Source: Clostridiales bacterium
Lineage (GTDB): Bacteria > Actinomycetota > Coriobacteriia > Anaerosomatales > SLCP01
Direction of reading: 5' to 3'
Assembly: GCA_018333995.1 (NCBI GenBank)
Contig: JAGXSG010000012.1
Coordinates: 1-43,559 of the forward strand
Length of the DNA: 43,559 nt
Shown here: in pieces, positions 1 through 16,709 of the stretch
How the letters are laid out: every line of letters begins with the position of its first letter
Position numbering within the stretch: the first letter of the stretch is position 1
Notes under the pieces: generated by a model
What the model was told of the DNA's origin: nothing
What the model saw: only the letters and a program-made list of their open reading frames with translations
Database searches by the model: none
Translations under genes and position numbers: made by a program

Positions 1-2
1 GC

Positions 3-290
3 TGTCGTCGCTGCGAGTGGGCGTGTCCGTACGGTGCCATGGTGCTTCAACCGGACACCAAGAAAATGGATAAGTGTGACGCATGCGCTGGGTTTAGCGT
101 TGCTGCGGGCGTGCCATCTGGCCCTCGTTGCGTTGAGGCGTGTCATGCGAAAGCGCTTGCCTGGGTTGACAAGGGCAGTGATTTTACAGTGGACGCAGCG
201 GAGCTACGGGTGGGCGGTGAGCACCTTGTGGCGAGGAGCGTGCTGACCAAGCCCAGTGTCAAGTTCATCAAAGTTCCAGGAGTTGACTGA
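3..290 (+). CDS. 4Fe-4S ferredoxin-type electron-transfer subunit (5' end outside window)
   Basis: This is the C-terminal 95 residues of an iron-sulfur protein that enters the window already in frame. The first visible residues form a CxxCxxxCP cluster motif ending in CPYGA. A KCDAC motif follows, then a proline-flanked CVEAC motif. This spacing is typical of the multi-cluster subunits (NrfC/DmsB/PsrB/TtrB type) that carry electrons between a molybdopterin oxidoreductase and a membrane quinone subunit. The stop is TGA at 288-290, and a long hairpin follows. The catalytic partner should lie upstream of the window, so the exact enzyme cannot be told. The subunit family is fairly sure; the substrate is unknown. 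Confidence 0.75.
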   Translation, partial: CRRCEWACPYGAMVLQPDTKKMDKCDACAGFSVAAGVPSGPRCVEACHAKALAWVDKGSDFTVDAAELRVGGEHLVARSVLTKPSVKFIKVPGVD

Positions 291-309
291 TCTCGATAGG
301 TCAGCGGCA

Positions 310-352
310 CGGGTACACCCGGTTGGCAGAACCTGCGGGCCGGGTGTACCCG
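310..352 (+). terminator. Long perfect hairpin after the ferredoxin gene
   Basis: A 13-bp perfect stem (310-322 with 340-352) encloses a 17-base loop that can itself fold a small GCAG/CTGC stem. It lies 20 bases past the stop of the ferredoxin subunit and about 60 bases before the next gene. No T-run follows, so it could be a weak or factor-dependent terminator, or an RNA-processing or stabilising hairpin inside the operon. Confidence 0.45.
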
Positions 353-410
353 CTCCCGTCACTGATCGGATAGGCGGAATGTTCGGTTGATCTGGAAGAG
401 CACCGACATA

Positions 411-1631
411 ATGTCACGAACCTTCGATCAGGCATCGATGCGGATCGATCGTTCTCGGTGCCTGAATCTTGGTTCCCGTGTGGAGTGCATGCGCTGCAGA
501 GACGCATGTGTCGAGGGGCTCCCCGATCCTCAATCGCTAGAGATCGTCGGCGAGCACCATAGGGCACGGTGCGACAGATGCGGTGCGTGCGCTTCTGAGT
601 GCCCGACGGGAGTCATAGAGCTACCGGATGATGGGTATGCTCGACGGTTGCCTCGATTGTCGCGATCTCTCATGCAGTGCTTGAGCGGAGATGGGGACGG
701 AAACGACACGCCGCTGATTGTCTCGTGTGGCGAATCGAGTTCGAGCGGGGAGCCTGGCGCTCACGGGGGATGCGTCTCATGGCTCGATCGGTCAGCTCTG
801 CTGCACCTGCTTGCGACCGTCGGCCGTCCGCTTCGCGTTGAGATTGGAGCCTGCGCCGAGGTTCAAGGCGTGAGGGCACGTGCGTGTGCTGAGAGGCTTA
901 CGCGGTATGCGGATTCGTGCAACACCCTGATGGAATCAATCGGGGTCCGATCAAGAATCACGGTGTCCCAAGGCGTGTTCTCGGCCCACTCACCGGCAGT
1001 TGATCTCGGAGAACGCCTGGATCGCGCCACGGCCATCCGTGAGGTGTTGCGGTGGGGTGTGACTGTACTGGACTGGAGAGGCGATCGCGATCAACTCACG
1101 AGCGCGCTGGGGGACGGGCATCGCGGGTCTGACAAGGTGAATAGACGGTTTGTCGCTGTGCTGGCCGTACGAAACCTGCTCGAACGAACAGGCGGGAGGG
1201 TCGCAACGGGTGATGGCCGTGAGGAATCCTCCGTCGGAGTGCTTTCCACCAGGGGGCCAAGAATCAACAGTGAGTGTTGTGTGGCCTGTGGTGCGTGTTC
1301 CCTTCTCTGTCCCACCGGCGCCTTACGCAGGATCGAAACAGAGGGTGACGCTGCGAGCGACTGGATGCTCACGCTTGATGTGAGGCAGTGTGTAGGCTGT
1401 GGTATTTGTGAGAAACAATGCGAGACTCCCGGCGCGATACGTCTGGCGGATCGTGGGACATCTGGAATGTGGAGAGATAGACCCATCATCTTGATTCGAC
1501 GCGATCGCGTTGTCTGCGACACTTGTGGTAGCGCGTTTCCGATCAGCCATGCGCCAGTAGACTCACCCGCCAAGGCAGCCCGATGTCCATCGTGTAGTGC
1601 GCGGGAGTCTCGGTTCAATGGATTTTACTAG
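411..1631 (+). CDS. Cysteine-rich multi-[4Fe-4S] protein with C-terminal zinc-ribbon-like motif
   Basis: The 406-residue protein is probably soluble: no signal peptide or membrane segment is evident. It has two ferredoxin-like regions. The first has C17, C26, C29 and C33 plus C54, C57, C60 and C64, the last set followed by PTG. The second has C290, C293, C296 and C300 plus C327, C330, C333 and C337. Between them (about residues 100-270) is a domain with scattered cysteines that I do not recognise. The tail has CxxC pairs near residues 369-372 and 393-396, resembling a zinc ribbon. ATG 411 follows a GGAAGAG 10 bases upstream; an in-frame TTG at 387 is the alternative start. It sits between a respiratory ferredoxin subunit and cytochrome genes, so cytoplasmic electron transfer or maturation of the redox enzyme is plausible. 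No named family is assigned. Confidence 0.7.
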   Translation: MSRTFDQASMRIDRSRCLNLGSRVECMRCRDACVEGLPDPQSLEIVGEHHRARCDRCGACASECPTGVIELPDDGYARRLPRLSRSLMQCLSGDGDGNDTPLIVSCGESSSSGEPGAHGGCVSWLDRSALLHLLATVGRPLRVEIGACAEVQGVRARACAERLTRYADSCNTLMESIGVRSRITVSQGVFSAHSPAVDLGERLDRATAIREVLRWGVTVLDWRGDRDQLTSALGDGHRGSDKVNRRFVAVLAVRNLLERTGGRVATGDGREESSVGVLSTRGPRINSECCVACGACSLLCPTGALRRIETEGDAASDWMLTLDVRQCVGCGICEKQCETPGAIRLADRGTSGMWRDRPIILIRRDRVVCDTCGSAFPISHAPVDSPAKAARCPSCSARESRFNGFY

Positions 1632-1674
1632 TCGAGCGCGCGAACGTTCTCGCGCACGTTTCACGGAGCGGGGC

Positions 1675-2337
1675 ATGGAAGCGAGACAAAAACATGGCCG
1701 CACATATGCGCTTTCGAGCACGTCATCGAAGGTGGCGGCGGTTCTGCTTGTGCTGATAGCGCTGAACGCGGCTCTCCTAGCCTGGCGTTGGGCGTCGGAA
1801 GCCAATCTGCCGCCCGGAAGCTACCATGAGTTTCACATCTCCGAGTGGCAACAAGCCAGCATCGCACGTCCCGACGATCCGATAGTCTGGTCAACATTGG
1901 GCGGCCTTTATGCAGCCGCTGGTCAACCGAGTAAGGCGCGGGCTGCGTTCACCAGGGCGGTGGAGCTTGACCATCGGAATTCGGCGGCGCAGATGTACCT
2001 GGCAGAGGTCGACATGCAAAACGAGGACTACGAGAGCGCACGTACTCGTCTACTGATTGCGGCCGAAGCTTTGCCTGATGGGGGCGCTCACCTGGCGTAC
2101 TATCGACTGGGAGAGCTCGAAGAAGCGACCGGAGACTTCGAGAAGGCGCTCGAACACTATGAGGCATCCATCTCGCAAAGTTCCACATACTGGAACGCGC
2201 ACTTCCGGGTAGCTGTGCTTCATGAGAGGGCCGGCAGGGAATCTGAGGCATTGGAGTCTGCGCAAAGAGCCGCACGTCTGGTACCGGACAATGACGAAGT
2301 GCGTGAGATGCTGTCCCGACTTCGAACAACCCCGTGA
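1675..2337 (+). CDS. Membrane-anchored TPR protein
   Basis: The 220-residue protein has one N-terminal membrane segment (about residues 18-38). About three to four tetratricopeptide repeats follow, visible as recurring A-G-x-A-x-A-x-x-x-Y/F patterns and the W/Y...LG...Y pattern. These would form a helical protein-binding scaffold outside the membrane. ATG 1675 is preceded by GGAG at a 6-base spacing. An ATG at 1618, overlapping the preceding stop, is an alternative that would add 19 mostly Arg/Ser-rich residues. TPR proteins of this form (NrfG-like) assist cytochrome c assembly in some respiratory operons, and the cytochrome genes downstream make such a role attractive. That role is inferred from context only. 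Confidence 0.72.
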   Translation: MEARQKHGRTYALSSTSSKVAAVLLVLIALNAALLAWRWASEANLPPGSYHEFHISEWQQASIARPDDPIVWSTLGGLYAAAGQPSKARAAFTRAVELDHRNSAAQMYLAEVDMQNEDYESARTRLLIAAEALPDGGAHLAYYRLGELEEATGDFEKALEHYEASISQSSTYWNAHFRVAVLHERAGRESEALESAQRAARLVPDNDEVREMLSRLRTTP

Positions 2338-2375
2338 TGCATTCGATGGGCGGCCGACACCGATCAGGAGACTGA

Positions 2376-3461
2376 ATGAGTACTGAGGATCAAGCCGACA
2401 TACAAAAACGGCCGGAAGCTGCACTTCAGGACTCACGCCAATCACGGAAACGCGCACGTGGCTGGATCATCGTCTTGCTGCTACTGCTGTTGCTGCTCAC
2501 TTGCGTGTTTATGCAACTCTTGTTTCCTAGCAGACGCGGGCCGCTGGTGACCACGCCCGCCGAGGGACTCGTCCCGGTCTTCAGCATCTATGGACTCAAC
2601 GAACCCAGAGGAGTCGCATCGTTGCCGGACGGACGGGTCTTGATATCTGATACTGGAGCCCAGCGGGCGTATATCTACGACTCAAACGGAGTGCTTGTGA
2701 CACGCCTGGGAGGAGAGCTTCCGGCAAATCGTGTCTTCTCGGTCACGGGGTCGATGTATCAAGACGGCGTGGCGTACATATGCGACTGGGGTCTCAGGCG
2801 GGTATGGATGTTCGCAGAGGATGGCTCTGTAATCGGACACTTTCCGGAAGACCCATTGGCATCCGTCTATGGCGAAGGGGGATTCTTTCCCTATGACATC
2901 GATCGCATGGGCGATGAGTATCTCGTCGCCACTAGGACAGGGGTATTCCGGTTCGACCAGGCTGGAGCGTTGATCGGAAGATTCGACAGGGGCGAAGTGG
3001 ATGGCTTCGCTCCGAGACACATCACTGGACTGGAAGTCGATCCGCACGGGGAGTACGTGTGGGTCGCTGATTCGTTCAACAGGCGAGTGATCGCGTATGA
3101 CCGTTCTGGAAATCCGGTGTGGTCGCTGGGTCGTCCGGACGTTGACGGGGAGATCGTCAGCTTCTTCGGTCTACCCCGCGACGTAGCGTACACAGACAGG
3201 GGACTTCTCGTAGCCGACGCGTTCCGGCACGAGCTTTATCTGTTCGACAGAGCGGGTTCCCTCATCGGCGTATATGGTAGACGGGGGACGGCGGACGCAG
3301 AATTCAACTTCCCGGAATCGATCTCGATTGCGTACGACGGTTTGCTGAACGTCGCTGATCGTGCCAACGATAGGGTACAGGTGTTGAGGCTAGGTGACCC
3401 GCTCGTTCCTGGGTCCGAGCTGGTCGAGAAGTGGAAACAGGGAATCACCCGGTATGAATGA
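2376..3461 (+). CDS. Membrane-anchored NHL-repeat beta-propeller protein
   Basis: The 361-residue protein starts with a charged, Arg/Lys-rich cytoplasmic stretch and a leucine-rich membrane segment (about residues 28-48). Then come about six NHL-type blades, seen as repeated G-V/I-A...G-x-L/V-x-V-A/S-D-x...N-x-R-V-x-x-Y/F patterns with aromatic strand ends. The propeller would lie outside the membrane. ATG 2376 has CAGGAG five bases upstream. NHL propellers are frequent neighbours of multiheme cytochromes in metal-reducing bacteria, where they are thought to serve as structural or docking parts. That role is inferred here. The next gene starts within its last codons, which indicates translational coupling. 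Confidence 0.8.
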   Translation: MSTEDQADIQKRPEAALQDSRQSRKRARGWIIVLLLLLLLLTCVFMQLLFPSRRGPLVTTPAEGLVPVFSIYGLNEPRGVASLPDGRVLISDTGAQRAYIYDSNGVLVTRLGGELPANRVFSVTGSMYQDGVAYICDWGLRRVWMFAEDGSVIGHFPEDPLASVYGEGGFFPYDIDRMGDEYLVATRTGVFRFDQAGALIGRFDRGEVDGFAPRHITGLEVDPHGEYVWVADSFNRRVIAYDRSGNPVWSLGRPDVDGEIVSFFGLPRDVAYTDRGLLVADAFRHELYLFDRAGSLIGVYGRRGTADAEFNFPESISIAYDGLLNVADRANDRVQVLRLGDPLVPGSELVEKWKQGITRYE

Positions 3462-4002
3462 GCCGCGGAAGCGTTTGGGTACCAACAGGCGGGGCACGCA
3501 TCCATGGCTGAGGACGCTGCTGGTCTTGTTGGTGGTCTTGCTTGTGACGTCCTGCGGTTTGGCGCTGTTGTGGCCTGTCCCGGTAGAGATGCAGGCCGAT
3601 AGACGTGGTGAAGCGCGTCCGATCGCAGGCACCGGAACTGTGAGCATCGTCGAAGCACAGGTGCGAATCGCGGAAGAGGTCCCGCTCAGCAGCCGAGCGC
3701 TTCCGCTTGCGGTGTCAGTAAGGCTCAACAATGCTGGCGCGGTTCGCGCCTTCGACTCCAACTGGGTTCGAATCGAGATTGATGGCACGACGTTGCTCCC
3801 GCTCTCGGAGGGCCGGGACGGAGTCTCCCTGGTTGCTCGGGTGCCATCTAGCCTGAAGGAGGGCGTGTCCGAGGCGATCACCGTGGTGTTTGCGGTTCCC
3901 GCAGGTTCCACCGAAGCAACCGTCGTCGTGCAGCCAGGGGAAGTGCGGCAGGCCGATGCGAGTAGAGTCGCTGTGAGCATTGTGGCGGTGACCGGGCGAT
4001 GA
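3454..4002 (+). CDS. Small membrane-anchored or lipoprotein of unknown function
   Basis: The 182-residue protein has a basic N-terminus, a hydrophobic segment (about residues 21-41) and a VTSC stretch that could be a lipobox. The residues after that Cys stay hydrophobic, so a plain membrane anchor is equally likely. The rest is a predicted beta-rich extracytoplasmic domain (about 70-180) with an N-N-A-G turn and alternating hydrophobic residues, possibly an Ig-like or DUF4352-like fold. I do not recognise a family. Its ATG overlaps the end of the NHL gene by 8 bases and its stop overlaps the first cytochrome start by 4, so it is made together with the cytochromes and probably belongs to the same complex. 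Confidence 0.65.
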   Translation: MNEPRKRLGTNRRGTHPWLRTLLVLLVVLLVTSCGLALLWPVPVEMQADRRGEARPIAGTGTVSIVEAQVRIAEEVPLSSRALPLAVSVRLNNAGAVRAFDSNWVRIEIDGTTLLPLSEGRDGVSLVARVPSSLKEGVSEAITVVFAVPAGSTEATVVVQPGEVRQADASRVAVSIVAVTGR

Positions 4003-4493
4003 GCGTGATAACGGTTAGGGCCCTGTCCGCCACAGTCTGGGCTGCGATTGGCATTGCGGCGGTCGCATCGCTGGTCGTCACCTCTTGGTATGCGGTGGCC
4101 GAACAGCGTCCCGAGAACCATACGTCGCAGTGGCAGTGGCTTCATGGTCGAGAGGCCGTTCGAAATCTGGAAAGCTGTAACACGTGCCACGATTGGTTCT
4201 CGTGTCAGACATGCCACTTGGCGCAGTGGCCACACGAAGAGGACTGGCAGGAGGTGCACGGACCGGAGGCGCAAAGGCTCGAAGGGCGAGGCTGCTACAT
4301 GTGCCACAGGGAGTCGTACTGCAACCCGTGTCACGGCGGGGTGAGAATGCCTCATCCCGACTCTTTCCTCAGCACACACCCGGATTCCGGCTATCCCGAA
4401 CAGGCGTGTCAAGTCTGTCATCTCCAGCGGGAGTGCGAAACATGCCATCGGGAGCATGACGCGCATCGTTCAGGGGGCGTGAAAGGACCATGA
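3999..4493 (+). CDS. Membrane-anchored hexaheme c-type cytochrome
   Basis: The 164-residue protein has an N-terminal membrane anchor (about residues 9-30) and six CxxCH haem-attachment motifs at C60, C69, C99, C108, C137 and C146. They form three tandem pairs, each with exactly four residues between the His of one motif and the first Cys of the next. Extra His residues (for example H41, H49, H87, H119, H127, H153, H156) can serve as distal ligands for bis-His haems. It should face outside the membrane and carry electrons. It is coupled by ATGA overlaps to the gene before and to the nonahaem cytochrome after it. It is short for a NapC/NrfH quinol dehydrogenase and does not show that family's layout, so its redox partner is unknown. 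Confidence 0.88.
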   Translation: MSVITVRALSATVWAAIGIAAVASLVVTSWYAVAEQRPENHTSQWQWLHGREAVRNLESCNTCHDWFSCQTCHLAQWPHEEDWQEVHGPEAQRLEGRGCYMCHRESYCNPCHGGVRMPHPDSFLSTHPDSGYPEQACQVCHLQRECETCHREHDAHRSGGVKGP

Positions 4494-5329
4494 GCCAAGG
4501 GCGTACGAGGACCCTATACGCAGTGGCCGGGATACTGGGGCTCTTCGCGCTCATTCTCGGTGTTGCCCTGGCTATGGCCATCGCGTATCCGAAGGCATCC
4601 CGAGCATTGTTCGCTGAGGCCGTGGCGATTCACCCATCGCTCACGTTGGCCGTCGCGAGGGTGAATGAAATTGGAGACGCGCTACTCCTGCGGGCACAAG
4701 AAGGATGGGAGTACAGGTTCGTTGGAACATATCGGAGCGTGATTGGCGTGCCGGTGACGGTGATAGACGAACAAGAGCCGCACGATACATTCCCGGAACA
4801 GGAGTGTCTTGAGTGCCACCCGTACTTTCGTGAGCGCCCATTGTTCTCCGTGGTCTACTTCTCCCACGAGTCTCACGCTCCCGGCGGATCGCGTTGTACG
4901 AGCTGCCACGTTCTTGACGGCCCGTTGCGCTGTGTTCCTCCAAAGATGTCTGGTTGCGGCGAATGTCATATCGAGGTCTCAGACGGGGAGTCGTGCAACA
5001 CGTGTCATCCGTACGGCAGTCTCTTCCATGGAGCTGCGCTGGCGGGAGACCGAGAGATCGGCACGCAGTGCGTGACGTGCCATCTTCCGGCTCGGCTGGT
5101 GGACGGTGCCCGAGAGATGGGTCTGCCCGCGCTCGATGCGCCCCAGGAGTCCTGCCGCCACTGCCATCAGTCCGCCTTCTGTGGCAGTTGTCATCCCTCA
5201 GGTCACCAGAGGACATACGCAAGAAGTCACGCCGCGGAGATGCGCGAGGGTGAAACGACTCCTACGCAGTGCTACGGGTGTCACTCGCCGAGAGGCTGCG
5301 TGAGTTGTCACTCTGGGATCAGACGGTGA
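4490..5329 (+). CDS. Membrane-anchored nonaheme c-type cytochrome
   Basis: The 279-residue protein has a single N-terminal membrane segment (about residues 10-32) and about 70 residues of haem-free extracytoplasmic sequence. Nine CxxCH motifs follow (CLECH, CTSCH, CGECH, CNTCH, CVTCH, CRHCH, CGSCH, CYGCH, CVSCH). The last four form two pairs with the same four-residue spacing seen in the adjacent hexahaem protein, suggesting that the two share an ancestral module. A YFSHESH segment gives candidate distal His ligands. The ATG overlaps the previous stop (ATGA). Together the two cytochromes would hold 15 haems outside the membrane, enough for a nanometre-scale wire. Electron transfer is clear; donor and acceptor are inferred. 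Confidence 0.88.
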   Translation: MSQGRTRTLYAVAGILGLFALILGVALAMAIAYPKASRALFAEAVAIHPSLTLAVARVNEIGDALLLRAQEGWEYRFVGTYRSVIGVPVTVIDEQEPHDTFPEQECLECHPYFRERPLFSVVYFSHESHAPGGSRCTSCHVLDGPLRCVPPKMSGCGECHIEVSDGESCNTCHPYGSLFHGAALAGDREIGTQCVTCHLPARLVDGAREMGLPALDAPQESCRHCHQSAFCGSCHPSGHQRTYARSHAAEMREGETTPTQCYGCHSPRGCVSCHSGIRR

Positions 5330-5372
5330 TGTTTTACTTGGTTTGCACGGTTATGACAGGGAGCGATAAGTG

Positions 5373-6155
5373 ATGCGACAGTCGTGTGGACGTGGATTAC
5401 TCAACCGGCCGATTCTGTACGCGGGTCTGGTGTTGCTCTTTCTGGGCGGCCTTGGGGTGGGATGGCTGGTGTTCTGGAATGCAGACGAGAGGGCGACGGA
5501 CGGTTTGACACGCGAGGGGGGGCTTGCCGAGGGGAATCAGGCGAACCGTGTGCAGGGCTCGGAAGGTGGGCCCGATGAGCCACCAGATCGCGGCGCGGCG
5601 GCCACCGGTACTACTGAGGAGACGCCGCAGGGTTCGGCGACAGGCGCCCCCGCTGAGGTGTCGAGTGACCAGGAGCAGGCAGCTGAGCCTCCGGCCGGAG
5701 GCGGCAGTCCCCGGCGGCCAGCTCCGTCTGGCTTCTTGCAGACGGGGTTCGGACCTGCCGCGGCGCAGTCGAACCTTGCGGGGGCGACTCGCATTGGCGA
5801 GGTGTCGGTCGATGGCGACACGCTGACTGCGGAGTACTCTGGGGGAGAGGCGGTAGGATTCGACATGCTGTTCTTATCGGTGAAACGAACCGCTTCGGCG
5901 GCTGACGCATCGTCCGAAGCAGAGACGCTCATCCACTCGTTTCCGGTGAAACAGCTGTCATATACGTGGGGAGGCAGGAAGATTCGCCAGGCCATGAATG
6001 ACGAAGGAAGACCGACCCAGTTTCCGCCGCTGGTCTGTTTCGTGTGGACTGAAGGGCGCTTCGCAATCAGGGTGGTCGTTGCGCCACTCGCGCCGGATCG
6101 GGTCGTCGACGCACGGCAATCCGCCCTAAAGTTCATCGACGCGTTGCCGTACTAG
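5373..6155 (+). CDS. Anchored protein with low-complexity stalk and unknown C-terminal domain
   Basis: The 260-residue protein has a membrane segment (about residues 14-34). A Gly/Ala/Pro/Glu/Thr-rich linker follows (about 35-120) of the kind that spans a cell wall. A C-terminal domain of about 140 residues contains an exposed-looking TWGG turn, a single Cys and a beta-strand-rich end. No family is recognised; a DUF4367-like fold is only a guess. GGGAG lies nine bases before ATG 5373, and an in-frame GTG at 5370 would add one residue. The gene lies between the 9-haem cytochrome and the CWB2 propeller protein, so a structural role between membrane and wall is plausible. Confidence 0.65.
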   Translation: MRQSCGRGLLNRPILYAGLVLLFLGGLGVGWLVFWNADERATDGLTREGGLAEGNQANRVQGSEGGPDEPPDRGAAATGTTEETPQGSATGAPAEVSSDQEQAAEPPAGGGSPRRPAPSGFLQTGFGPAAAQSNLAGATRIGEVSVDGDTLTAEYSGGEAVGFDMLFLSVKRTASAADASSEAETLIHSFPVKQLSYTWGGRKIRQAMNDEGRPTQFPPLVCFVWTEGRFAIRVVVAPLAPDRVVDARQSALKFIDALPY

Positions 6156-6159
6156 GGAG

Positions 6160-8226
6160 GTGAGAGGGCTGATTTCTCAGCGGTTTCCCAAGGCGTACAG
6201 CGTTGCGCGGATCACCCTTGCTTTGGCTCTCGCTACTCTGCTGCAAGTAATACTAGTGCCTGAGTCAACATATGCGTTTCTGGCCGAACCAACAGTGACC
6301 CCGCTTCTCAATCAGCAGACTAATCCGGTGCTCGGCGACGGATTCATACTATTCGAGCAGCGGATACGCTCCGATGAGCCCGCCGATCTTTGGGCGCTAT
6401 GGCCCGCAACAGGGGTTCGCGCTGTCGTCGCGGACGGCCCCGGAAGTCAATATGCGGCGACCGCGTTCGATCGCTACGTCGTGTTCATCGATGAGCAACA
6501 AGTCGGTCAAACCAACACGTTTCGGCTCAATATTGTCGATATGACGAACCGGTCACGCCGGGCTACGATCGTATCGGCAACTACCACGCCCTTGTGGACC
6601 CCTTCGATCAGCGAGGGCATTCTGACGTGGGCGCAGGGTCCATTGGGAAGCCGAGCGATCTATGGCTTGCGGCTCGATCTGGATGGGAACGGGGTTCCTG
6701 ACGTACTGGAGGGTGGTCCCGTATCCACCGCCGTCGTGTTGGCGGCCGATCCCGGCGCCGATGTTTTTTCTCCGGTCCTCGGGCCAGGCCGCTTGGTGTT
6801 CGCAAGTCGACTGAGCGTAGGAAGCGCGAGGATCATCAGCATGTCGGTCAGCGCGGATTCGACGCGGATTGTCGATCCGGGTGGTACCGCTACGCTATCC
6901 GAGGACACAGCCAACAGGGATCCCGACCCCGCGACTGCAGGTGTTCTTGCGGTTTGGAGGCACTCGGCTGATAGGGTTCGCATCTATGATTTTGTTGCCG
7001 GTACGAGCGTCGACGCGACATCGGGGCCTGGATGGAGCATCGTGGTCTCCCCTTCGACCGACGGCGTTCACGTGGCATGGCAAGCGTTCGGCCTTCCTCC
7101 AGGCAGTCAGGGCGACCCGATCCACCAGGTTTTCATGCGCGACACTACCGGCGCGATCTTCAGGGCGTCTCCTGTGCTCGCTAGTCAGCACGCTCCGGCT
7201 CTTGGTCGCGGAATACTGGCCTGGGGCGACTCGCGTCAGACGCACACGGGGCAGACCCCGAACCTTGCATTTGTATCTCTTGCCTCACGCAGGGTTCAAG
7301 GAGCCGACAGATTCGAGACGGCGGCGCGCTCCTCGGAGCTCGCCTTTCCGCAAGGTTCTGAGCACGTGCTCATAGCCACTGGACACAACTGGCCGGACGC
7401 GCTTGGCGGCTCAGCCCTGGCGGGGGTGCTCGACGCACCCATTCTCTTGGTGGAACGGGACTCGGTTCCAGCGGCAACCAGGGCCGAGATTGCTCGACTG
7501 GGTGCGAGGAGAGCATTGATCCTTGGAGGGACAGGAGCGGTTGGCGCTCGGGTTCAGTCCCAACTTGAGGGGATGGGTGTGGTCGTCGATCGCCTTGGAG
7601 GCGACAATCGCTATCAGACCGCCGAGAGAATCGCCACACGGGTGATCTCCCTCCTGGGAACTCGGCATGACGGCACTTTGTTCCTGGCCACAGGGCGTGA
7701 TTTTCCCGATGCGCTTTCGGCCGCTCCGATTGCGGTTAGGCAGCGATGGCCCGTGGTGCTTGTCGATCCAGGGGCGACTCGGCTTGGCGATGGTGTAAGA
7801 GGGCTCGTGAGGGACTCTAGCTTGGTCATCGTCCTTGGTGGACTCGGCGCTGTGCCCACGAGTGTCGAGGATGAGGTCCGTGCACTTGGCGTGCCGGATG
7901 TCGTTCGGCTGGAAGGCCCCGACCGTTACGACACCGCGGTCGCCATCGCCAGGTTCGCCACCACACACACTGCCGTGAGAGAGAGGCATCGATGGGATCG
8001 TGTCGGGATCTCTACAGGCACGCGCTTTCCAGATGCGCTTAGTGGGGGGGTGCTTCAGGGCAGGACCGGCAGCGTCATGATGCTCACCCGTCCCGACGTA
8101 TTGCCCGAGTCGGTTGCGGTGACTCTGAGAGACAATGCGCTCGCGATTGACACCGTTGTCTTTTTCGGGGGCACGGTTGCTGTGAATCAGAATGTTCGCG
8201 ATTCGGTCTTGGGCAACGTGCGCTAA
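6160..8226 (+). CDS. Secreted TolB-like propeller protein with three CWB2 repeats
   Basis: The roughly 688-residue protein has an N-terminal signal segment (about residues 17-40). A predicted beta-propeller region (about 45-370) has repeated W/F-x-x-S/D...G...L/I-x-W motifs. Three cell-wall-binding type 2 repeats (about 375-688) each open with R-x-x-G-x-D/N-R-F/Y-x-T-A and contain a W/F-P-D-A-L segment and an I/V-x-G-G-x-G-A-V turn. CWB2 repeats hold surface proteins non-covalently to secondary wall polymers, so this is a surface or S-layer-like protein. The start is uncertain: GTG 6160 sits inside a GGGAGG that would be the ribosome site, while CTG 6169 has better spacing (8 bases). It closes the cytochrome cluster and has that cluster's codon style. 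Confidence 0.82.
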   Translation: MRGLISQRFPKAYSVARITLALALATLLQVILVPESTYAFLAEPTVTPLLNQQTNPVLGDGFILFEQRIRSDEPADLWALWPATGVRAVVADGPGSQYAATAFDRYVVFIDEQQVGQTNTFRLNIVDMTNRSRRATIVSATTTPLWTPSISEGILTWAQGPLGSRAIYGLRLDLDGNGVPDVLEGGPVSTAVVLAADPGADVFSPVLGPGRLVFASRLSVGSARIISMSVSADSTRIVDPGGTATLSEDTANRDPDPATAGVLAVWRHSADRVRIYDFVAGTSVDATSGPGWSIVVSPSTDGVHVAWQAFGLPPGSQGDPIHQVFMRDTTGAIFRASPVLASQHAPALGRGILAWGDSRQTHTGQTPNLAFVSLASRRVQGADRFETAARSSELAFPQGSEHVLIATGHNWPDALGGSALAGVLDAPILLVERDSVPAATRAEIARLGARRALILGGTGAVGARVQSQLEGMGVVVDRLGGDNRYQTAERIATRVISLLGTRHDGTLFLATGRDFPDALSAAPIAVRQRWPVVLVDPGATRLGDGVRGLVRDSSLVIVLGGLGAVPTSVEDEVRALGVPDVVRLEGPDRYDTAVAIARFATTHTAVRERHRWDRVGISTGTRFPDALSGGVLQGRTGSVMMLTRPDVLPESVAVTLRDNALAIDTVVFFGGTVAVNQNVRDSVLGNVR

Positions 8227-12196: not shown

Positions 12197-12369
12197 TTTG
12201 CGCGGTACGCACTCTCCCGTTTTATGGAGCACCCCTCGAGGGCGATCCGGTTGTGTCCGTTTATCCGCGATGGGGAATATCCCGTTTTGGCACGCGCGTG
12301 TCAGTAGCGGGCTTTGCACCGGTTGGGAACGGGGAGTATGCCCGCGTAGATGAGAGGAGTGTGGAGCAT

Positions 12370-13911
12370 ATGAGGGGCAGACAACGGTGGGCAAGGACAT
12401 CGCTCGTTGTGATGTTAGCGGTGTTCATGCTCGCGAGTATGCCGGGGCTCGGTGCGGCCGGGGGTACGAAGGACGGAGGTGCGACCATCCAGCCGCAGGC
12501 CGCGGTCGTGTACGCGGATGCCTACGAACCTGACGACACGTTCGCCACAGCGTACGAATTCGATCCGGCACTCGACGGGAACACGTACTCTTCGTACCGC
12601 TCGTTCCACGGCATGAACGAATCGGAAGACCAGTGGGATACCGTCAAGGTGACGATCGATGAGACAGGGACCCCGATCTGGGTGGAGGCCGTGTACGCCT
12701 CCGGGTTCTCAGACACTGAGATCTATCTCTACGACAGCGAGGGGACTTTTCTCAGGTACGCTGACGACAACGATTTCTGGAACAGCGGGTACTCGGACTC
12801 GATGTATTATCGCGCGCCCTCTCCGGGGATCTACTACATCCAGATCGGCGGCCGTGGTCATCTGTGCGAGTATGAGCTCCACATCACCTTAGGCGACGCT
12901 CGTCGCGTGTGGGGCGAGAACCGGTTTGCGACAGCCGCTGAGGTTTCGCGGCTGCAGTGGGATGACACACAGAACCCAGTTCCCGGGACGGGCATCGGCC
13001 CCTCAGACATCGTGATCGTGAATGGGAGCAATCCCGCTGACGCCTTAGCTGGCGGCCCGATGGCGACTCAGCTCGGCGGCGTGTTGCTTCTCACGCACAA
13101 GGATCACCTGCCGTATGAGACGTGGGACGAGATATGGCGTGTGACTGAGTCGAGGTACTGGGACGAGGACGACGTCAAGATCTGGGTGCTCGGCGGCGAA
13201 TCCGCGGTGAGCGAGGAGGTCTTCGACGAGCTTGCGAACATCCGCAATATCTCTGAGATCGAGCGCATCGCTGGGGCCGATCGCTTCGAGACGGCGGCCG
13301 CTGTTGCGACCGCGACAGCCGAGGCGGGACACATAGGCGGCACGGCGTTCATCGTGAACGGCCACTCGTGGGCGGACGGCCTGGCGGCTGCGCCGGTCGC
13401 GGCCAACGAGCGGAGCCCTGTGCTCATGACCCACAAGGACCATGTGCCTCAAGTCACCATGGACTGGCTCATGGGTAACGCGATCACCAACGTCGTAGTG
13501 GTCGGCGGCGAGGGTGCCGTCAGCTCAGCGGTCTTTGATGAGCTCGCCACTGAGTTTGTTGTCGAGCGTGTGGCGGGTGCCAACAGGTATGAGACCGCGC
13601 TTGCTGTCGCGCGGTGGGGGGTGGCCAATGCGGGCATGAGCCCGCATCTCGCGACCGTCGTGTCGGGCGAGAACTTCCCCGACGCGCTTGCGGCGGCTCC
13701 GATCAGCTGGTGGACGGGCGCACCCGTGCTGTTCACATCGAAGAATTCGTTGCATCAAACGGTAGTCGACTACTTCCACACAAACGGAGCTATCGGTAGC
13801 ATTATAGGGGACGGGATCGGTTGCTACCTGATCGGCGGCCCAGGCGCGATCAGCGAAGCTGTCTACGAGGCGTTCCGCGACCTTTGGCAGACGATTCCTC
13901 CACCGGATTAG
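12370..13911 (+). CDS. Secreted PPC-domain protein with three CWB2 repeats
   Basis: The 513-residue protein has a signal peptide (about residues 8-33). A beta-sandwich like the bacterial pre-peptidase C-terminal (PPC) domain follows (about 50-170), opening with D-A-Y-E-P-D-D-T-F and containing L-Y-D-S-E-G and Y-Y-I-Q-I. Three CWB2 repeats (about 175-510) then begin at W-G-E-N-R-F, A-G-A-D-R-F and A-G-A-N-R-Y, each with an A-D-A/G-L-A segment and a V-x-G-G-E/P-x-A-V/I turn. It should be held on the cell surface by secondary wall polymers; no enzymatic domain is visible. ATG 12370 is preferred (GAGGAG ends 10 bases before). The 173-base gap upstream separates it from tsaD. Confidence 0.85.
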   Translation: MRGRQRWARTSLVVMLAVFMLASMPGLGAAGGTKDGGATIQPQAAVVYADAYEPDDTFATAYEFDPALDGNTYSSYRSFHGMNESEDQWDTVKVTIDETGTPIWVEAVYASGFSDTEIYLYDSEGTFLRYADDNDFWNSGYSDSMYYRAPSPGIYYIQIGGRGHLCEYELHITLGDARRVWGENRFATAAEVSRLQWDDTQNPVPGTGIGPSDIVIVNGSNPADALAGGPMATQLGGVLLLTHKDHLPYETWDEIWRVTESRYWDEDDVKIWVLGGESAVSEEVFDELANIRNISEIERIAGADRFETAAAVATATAEAGHIGGTAFIVNGHSWADGLAAAPVAANERSPVLMTHKDHVPQVTMDWLMGNAITNVVVVGGEGAVSSAVFDELATEFVVERVAGANRYETALAVARWGVANAGMSPHLATVVSGENFPDALAAAPISWWTGAPVLFTSKNSLHQTVVDYFHTNGAIGSIIGDGIGCYLIGGPGAISEAVYEAFRDLWQTIPPPD

Positions 13912-16373: not shown

Positions 16374-16709
16374 ATGAATGCGGAGTTCATGCGTGAGTGG
16401 ACGCGACTGAAGTCCGAGCACACGCACGATCGAGACCCGGCCAACAACTATGGCTGTTTCAACGTGGAGGCGTGCCGGAACTGTAACTACGTCTACAACT
16501 CCCGGGCGTGCATCAGCTGTCACAACAGCGATTCGATAATCGAGTGCGTGCAATGCGTCGACTGCCGGGATTGCGCATTTTGCGTGGGACTCAATGGCGC
16601 GCGCTTCCACATCCTCAACAAGGAGTACTCCGAGGCTGAGTACTACGCGAAGCTCGCCGAGTACGGCATCGACTGGAACGTCGAAGCGTTTGACGATTTT
16701 GCGATGTAG
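16374..16709 (+). CDS. Small cysteine-rich protein of unknown function
   Basis: The 111-residue protein has a central block (about residues 28-72) of closely spaced cysteines in repeated C-x2-C steps: CRNC, CISC, then C-x2-C pairs about every three to five residues. A conserved-looking G-L-N...I-L-N-K-E-Y-S-E-A-E-Y-Y tail follows. There is no signal peptide, so despite one CISCH motif it is unlikely to carry haem. The pattern resembles a widespread uncharacterised Cys-rich repeat family ending in N-K-x-Y-S/T-x-E-E-Y; metal binding is likely but unproven. GGAGGG precedes ATG 16374. It stands alone between the groEL terminator and a convergent glycosyltransferase. Confidence 0.75.
   Translation: MNAEFMREWTRLKSEHTHDRDPANNYGCFNVEACRNCNYVYNSRACISCHNSDSIIECVQCVDCRDCAFCVGLNGARFHILNKEYSEAEYYAKLAEYGIDWNVEAFDDFAM

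Follow-up and report, generated by a model that had tools for sequence, protein, structure and literature searches.

An apparently transferred gene island joining a molybdoenzyme, four multihaem cytochromes and a wall-binding protein: a candidate wall-linked respiratory module in Coriobacteriia

Introduction

How do respiratory electrons cross the thick wall of single-membrane bacteria? Their passage is poorly understood, and the question is raised by a gene cluster at the start of contig JAGXSG010000012.1 of a Clostridiales bacterium (Coriobacteriia, Anaerosomatales; assembly GCA_018333995.1), from which a stretch of 43,559 nucleotides was analysed (hereafter, the window). The cluster encodes iron-sulfur (Fe-S) proteins, multihaem c-type cytochromes and a protein with CWB2 wall-binding domains, and an earlier reading made from the sequence alone had proposed that electrons pass from a quinone-linked oxidoreductase through 15 anchored haems toward a surface lattice. 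In the present study, we found that the cluster is the downstream part of an island of approximately 17 kb, which was apparently acquired from another lineage. Since the island encodes a terminal-type molybdoenzyme and an oxyanion-type sensor of its own, it is more probable that the haems supply this enzyme than that they form a path ending at minerals or a lattice. We suggest that the island is a wall-linked module of molybdenum respiration in which the haems feed an extracellular oxyanion-type reductase, as a counterpart of the DmsEFABGH system in what is presumably a single-membrane host; we give this reading about an even chance of being correct.

Results

The complete island

Contig C12 of G000, the genome under study, begins with the window, the first base of which falls within an NrfC-like gene (FeS1). 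Contig C1 of the same genome, when reversed, shares its last 183 bp exactly with the first 183 bp of the window. The genome G013 (locus L025), from another family of the same taxonomic order, has the same gene order; the upstream part of its cluster comprises two multihaem cytochromes, TorD, a molybdoenzyme of 911 aa and a complete NrfC-like gene, and the counterpart of this molybdoenzyme, 91% identical, is located at the extreme end of C1. The join between C1 and C12 is also supported because the genes that flank the island on the two contigs adjoin each other in three genomes of the same family as G000 (G001, G003, and G006). Extension upstream, which the sequence-only reading had recommended, supplied a sensor trio, two cytochromes, TorD, the molybdoenzyme and the rest of FeS1, and made the cluster approximately twice as long. 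The complete island consists of 16 adjacent genes, eight of them wholly or partly on C1 (Table 1), and encodes four multihaem c-type cytochromes with 6, 4-5, 6, and 9 haem motifs (25 or more in total).

Table 1. Genes of the island on contigs C12 (the window) and C1.
Feature	Position	Strand	Remarks
FeS1, C-terminal half of NrfC/DmsB-like Fe-S subunit (183 aa whole)	window 1..290	+	rest at C1 2-445; DmsB-type profile matches
FeS2, 414 aa	window 387..1631	+	3x CX2CX2CX3C, more Cys motifs, C-terminal CxxC...CxxC
TPR protein, N-terminal membrane anchor	window 1675..2337	+	likely start ATG 1675; TPR_2 E 6.6e-21
NHL beta-propeller, N-terminal membrane anchor	window 2376..3461	+	NHL E 2.6e-13
X, 182 aa, membrane-anchored	window 3454..4002	+	no family matched
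cyt6, exported 6-haem c-type cytochrome	window 3999..4493	+	three CXXCH pairs
cyt9, 9-haem c-type cytochrome, N-terminal membrane anchor	window 4490..5329	+	9 CXXCH
Stalk, stalked membrane protein	window 5370..6155	+	no family matched
CWB2 wall-binding protein, propeller-like N-terminal repeats	window 6160..8226	+	CW_binding_2 x3, E 1.4e-49; final island gene
LytTR regulator	C1 8282-9037	opposite to remaining island genes	
Histidine kinase	C1 6710-8278	opposite to remaining island genes	
PhnD-like binding protein	C1 5793-6713	opposite to remaining island genes	Phosphonate-bd E 9.7e-29
Upstream 6-haem cytochrome	C1 4561-5367		doubled CXXCH
Tetrahaem protein	C1 3966-4535		plus one CX4CH (4-5 haem motifs)
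TorD chaperone	C1 3239-3940		TorD E 1.9e-11
Molybdoenzyme, 911 aa, Tat-exported	C1 502-3237		
FeS1, NrfC-like	C1 2-445, continuing to window 290		DmsB-type profile

Within the window, the same-strand cluster described by the earlier reading is real: its genes, motifs and domains were all recovered at 1-8226, with the qualification that the NrfC/PsrB-like subunit is represented there by its C-terminal half. The overlaps of 4-8 bases were also borne out, being 8 bases for NHL/X and 4 each for X/cyt6 and cyt6/cyt9, with the same values in G013, and the spacing of the island genes (-8 to 96 bases) is operon-like. The six and nine CXXCH motifs of cyt6 and cyt9 compare with an average of 0.07 and at most 2 in shuffled residues. 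All six are kept by cyt6 in G013 and in G002, a further genome of the same family as G000, and cyt9 of G002 keeps eight of nine plus one CX3CH. By hydropathy, TPR, NHL, X, cyt6, cyt9, stalk, and CWB2 each have a hydrophobic segment near the N-terminus. In cyt6, this segment is followed by AVA|E, in G013 as well, which resembles a cleavable signal and makes the membrane anchoring of cyt6 uncertain. No signal peptide was seen in FeS2 by sequence and hydropathy. CWB2 supports wall binding, and not the lattice that had been proposed. For FeS2 and cyt9, the structures predicted by AlphaFold (mean pLDDT 35 and 38) were too poor for use, and cyt9 had a single weak match (22%) in a scan of genome contigs. 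FeS2 may resemble a polyferredoxin family found with other molybdoenzymes. In G013, the upstream 6-haem cytochrome occurs as a tandem pair (L025 1-525 and 819-1625), the first copy of which is truncated by the contig end.

Conservation and acquisition

Three sister genomes (G001, G003, and G006) have an empty site, in which the flanking genes, for a 116-aa protein and a nitroreductase, are approximately 100 bp apart and are surrounded by the V-ATPase to TsaD gene order that is also found in G000; the gene that follows CWB2 in G000 is the right flank of this site. Identities to G013 are 81% for FeS1, 50% for FeS2, 72% for TPR, 75% for NHL, 60% for X, 72% for cyt6, 62% for cyt9, 57% for stalk, and 61% for CWB2, and those to G002 are 68% for FeS1, 45% for TPR, 57% for NHL, 34% for X, 53% for cyt6, and 44% for cyt9. 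Each island protein common to the three genomes is thus nearer to the copy in the other family, whereas the housekeeping protein TsaD is 81% identical to that of G002 and 67% to that of G013. The GC content of the island (59.9%) differs from that of the neighbouring DNA (62.5% and 64.3%). Taken together, the island appears to be a module acquired horizontally from another lineage and transferred as a block. An ancestral presence in the family was ruled out by the empty sites in the sister genomes and by the conflict of the identities with TsaD. A tRNA-linked insertion site was not seen in the window, where no tRNA or Rfam family was detected.

The gene order is conserved outside this strain, as the sequence-only reading had asked, in G013 and, in a shorter version, in G002. 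The latter runs from the molybdoenzyme C-terminus (only the final ~44 codons are on the contig) through FeS1, TPR, NHL, X, cyt6, and cyt9 to the sensor trio, and lies on a contig without the flank genes of the island. This comparison suggests a core of molybdoenzyme, FeS1, TPR, NHL, X, and two cytochromes, with FeS2, stalk, and CWB2 as accessory parts. The upstream half is much more conserved with respect to G013 (molybdoenzyme 91%, cytochromes 82-85%) than the downstream half, in which FeS2 and stalk are lowest, and the two halves may therefore differ in history or constraint.

The molybdoenzyme

The catalytic subunit that had been predicted upstream of the window is a molybdoenzyme with Molybdopterin, Molydop_binding, and N-terminal Fe4S4 domains and the Tat motif SRRSFTK. 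Its SHQSTC, which contains the putative Mo-ligand Cys, aligns with SHSSVC of ArrA, and the stretch RTNP.KG..DP.FV.IS is common to both proteins in addition to SHxSxC. Profiles of the PDB gave 138 bits for PsrA and 120 for ArrA. Scores against NCBIfam were below the equivalog cut-off (in parentheses) in each case, namely, 201 bits for PhsA (694), 95 for ArrA (1600), and 94 for DmsA (777.7), and identity to plasmid PhsA was 26-28% over about half the length of the protein. These values place the enzyme, as far as profiles allow, in the PsrA/PhsA-ArrA branch and outside every characterised equivalog tested. The earlier reading had allowed for a known soluble-acceptor reductase upstream; an enzyme is indeed encoded there, but it lies outside any characterised family. 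A working criterion for MopB families is that they retain 40% identity or more, and unassigned Cys-ligand lineages have been reported near this branch (PMC10100899). By that criterion, the molybdoenzyme would rank as a separate MopB family, set apart by pairwise identity rather than by a full tree. Among 398 genomes of the class, it was found at E <= 1e-100 in G000 and G013 and, as a 47% homologue, in G075 only.

The sensor trio

Adjoining the molybdoenzyme cluster is a trio of a PhnD-like binding protein, a histidine kinase, and a LytTR regulator. Similar trios beside molybdoenzymes, AioX/ArxX/ArrX-S-R, sense arsenic oxyanions (PMC5908839). The XSR-type layout is present in G000, the trio lies downstream of cyt9 in G002, and the G013 contig ends before that region. 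The arsenate sensor ArrX was the sole PDB match of the PhnD-like protein at E <= 0.01 (E 1e-12) and again the top PDB match of the G002 copy. The sensor offers a direct route to identifying the acceptor.

The quinone link

The earlier reading had assumed a quinone-linked oxidoreductase, and this part found no counterpart in the cluster: nothing of the NrfD/PsrC or NapC/NrfH type was recognised among the island genes, and no multi-span membrane protein that could be a PsrC/PhsC-type quinone subunit is encoded in the stretches that run from the A and B genes to the two flanks. However, G000 has several NapC-type cytochromes off the island, on C15 and C3, together with an MqnA/D-type gene and UbiA-type prenyltransferases, which makes a menaquinol source plausible; a menaquinone-free reading of this genome was set aside because of the latter two. 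In G075, which belongs to another family, the 47% homologue is immediately preceded by a NapC/NirT-family haem protein (E 3.9e-13) and followed by a DmsB-type subunit and TorD, with hydrogenase genes nearby. The NapC/NirT neighbour supports an electron flow from quinol to enzyme.

Other genes

On C3 of G000 (L037), genes for hydrogenase-like large and small subunits adjoin an NHL/TPR/20-haem set, possibly representing a hydrogenase-linked electron route. Outside the island, the window also encodes another wall-binding protein of the CWB2 type, which weakly matches the PPC domain (12253-13911), and a Cys-rich protein of 111 aa with close CxxC motifs and no Pfam match (16374-16709).

Discussion

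If the island is a wall-linked molybdenum respiration module, a NapC/NrfH-type cytochrome encoded elsewhere in the genome would draw electrons from the menaquinol pool, and the anchored and wall-linked haems would relay them by hopping to the Fe-S subunit and then to the molybdoenzyme, which would reduce an oxyanion-type acceptor, either dissolved or particle-bound, outside the membrane. The sensor trio may switch on the operon in the presence of the acceptor compound, and the wall-binding and scaffold proteins may stand in for the outer-membrane porin of DmsEFABGH. Considering that the island carries both a sensor and a terminal-type enzyme of its own, and that sister genomes have the empty site, it appears to be a transferable 17-kb parts list.

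Several points weigh against this reading. The Cys in the pocket of ArrX, which presumably corresponds to C106 of AioX, is replaced by Ser in the sensors of G000 and G002, and the ligand is thus likely to be other than an arsenic oxyanion; the regulator is of the LytTR type, in contrast to AioR, ArxR, and ArrR, and together these features suggest that the ligand may be no oxyanion at all. FeS2, stalk, and CWB2 were not found in the G002 cluster. Quinones were undetected in two cultured isolates of what is apparently the same order (PMC9686372). In addition, the sequence would be compatible with electron flow in either direction, and the enzyme is placed at the wall by conjecture.

The most serious alternative, which we consider unlikely, is that the haem chain is a true extracellular conduit to minerals, humics, or other cells, with the molybdoenzyme being auxiliary or ferric-reductase-like, close to what has been proposed for Pyrodictium and Parvivirga. 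Sets of NHL, TPR, and multihaem proteins occur with Gram-positive iron-reduction clusters (PMC10376724), Pyrodictium molybdoenzymes increase on ferrihydrite (PMC8105010), and the wall-binding protein and the 25 or more haem motifs suit a long path. The end of the G002 cluster (L026 8056-9378) also looks like a glycine-rich domain fused to a related haem protein. The C-terminal part of this product, at the contig end, is almost the same in sequence as the beginning of the upstream 6-haem cytochrome of the island, and the whole may join a surface domain to a haem protein. On the other hand, the inserted block holds the cytochromes together with a dedicated sensor trio, the Tat molybdoenzyme, and TorD, an arrangement in keeping with a specific soluble acceptor, and G000 has further multihaem clusters, of larger size (20-, 13-, and 11-haem), that are better suited to minerals.

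It is improbable that the module runs in reverse, with an Arx-like molybdoenzyme oxidising an external donor and the haems carrying its electrons to the quinone pool or an outside acceptor. ArxA and ArrA, of the same branch, catalyse opposite reactions, and the layout of the island, with an additional polyferredoxin next to the A and B genes and a trio of the XSR type, recalls arxB'AB/arxXSR (PMC5908839). However, the island lacks an ArxC-type membrane subunit, FeS2, which may correspond to ArxB' by its position, is absent from the G002 cluster, and the G075 homologue adjoins a cytochrome of the quinol-oxidising type. Least probable is a reductase for an organic acceptor, such as the catechol or cinnamate type, for the respiration of which there is precedent in Coriobacteriia; the only further homologue in the class, near NapC-type cytochrome and hydrogenase genes, would fit this, but a PhnD/ArrX-type sensor and an enzyme whose nearest relatives are PsrA and ArrA speak against it.

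Returning to the wall-linked respiration module, we tentatively raise a broader proposal, which we consider rather less likely, that an uncharacterised MopB family, four cytochromes, NHL/TPR proteins, and the wall-binding propeller form one extracellular respiratory complex, and that wall-bound respiratory molybdoenzymes of this kind are a new class in single-membrane bacteria, mobile by horizontal transfer. In agreement with the sequence-only reading, which had recognised no described complex with such a gene set, a limited literature search turned up no published match.

Comparison with known systems

A cluster of multihaem and molybdopterin genes in Parvivirga hydrogeniphila (MCL4079376-90), apparently of the same order, has been linked to Fe(III) reduction (PMC9686372), and multihaem cytochromes with a molybdopterin oxidoreductase are common to it and the island. 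However, G030, presumed to be the genome of P. hydrogeniphila, lacks the island molybdoenzyme; its sole PF00384 gene has a TGA that is read through in frame, a feature of selenocysteine formate dehydrogenases, and multihaem neighbours including a 20-haem cytochrome. A second cluster of G000, on C21 (L038), has an in-frame-TGA molybdoenzyme, probably a selenocysteine formate dehydrogenase, with an Fe-S subunit, NHL, TPR, and 20- and 13-haem cytochromes. It is this cluster that looks like the counterpart of the published one, and the identification of the island with the latter was ruled out. The NHL and TPR genes of the island adjoin multihaem cytochrome genes, G000 has paralogous sets of this kind elsewhere, and NHL and TPR proteins are likewise encoded with multihaem cytochromes in Dethiobacter alkaliphilus; unlike the island, its clusters, in the accessible part of the report, come with no mention of a sensor trio or CWB2 and in an organism without molybdopterin oxidoreductases of the sulfur-respiration type (PMC10376724).

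The aio/arx/arr clusters share with the island a PhnD-like protein, a kinase, and a regulator by the molybdoenzyme, as well as a polyferredoxin like ArxB' in layout. The island differs from them in its LytTR regulator, the lack of the pocket Cys and of a C subunit, an enzyme outside ArrA, and its many cytochromes. PsrABC/PhsABC is the nearest characterised catalytic relative, with a Cys at the Mo-ligand position and a DmsB-type B subunit in common; the island has multihaem partners and no PsrC/NrfD.

The closest working parallel appears to be DmsEFABGH of Shewanella oneidensis, an extracellular DMSO/iodate reductase in which DmsE passes electrons from CymA to surface DmsAB (PMC11302344). The molybdoenzyme of the island is nearer to PsrA/ArrA than to DmsA, no family match to a porin (DmsF/MtrB) was found among the island proteins scanned, and four cytochromes, NHL, TPR, CWB2, a second polyferredoxin, and the sensor trio are extra. 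Both systems nevertheless unite a molybdoenzyme, an Fe-S subunit, a TorD-type chaperone, and a multihaem cytochrome in one operon, and the scheme of DmsEFABGH, in which a quinol-oxidising cytochrome feeds the multihaem cytochrome, is the one that we propose for the island.

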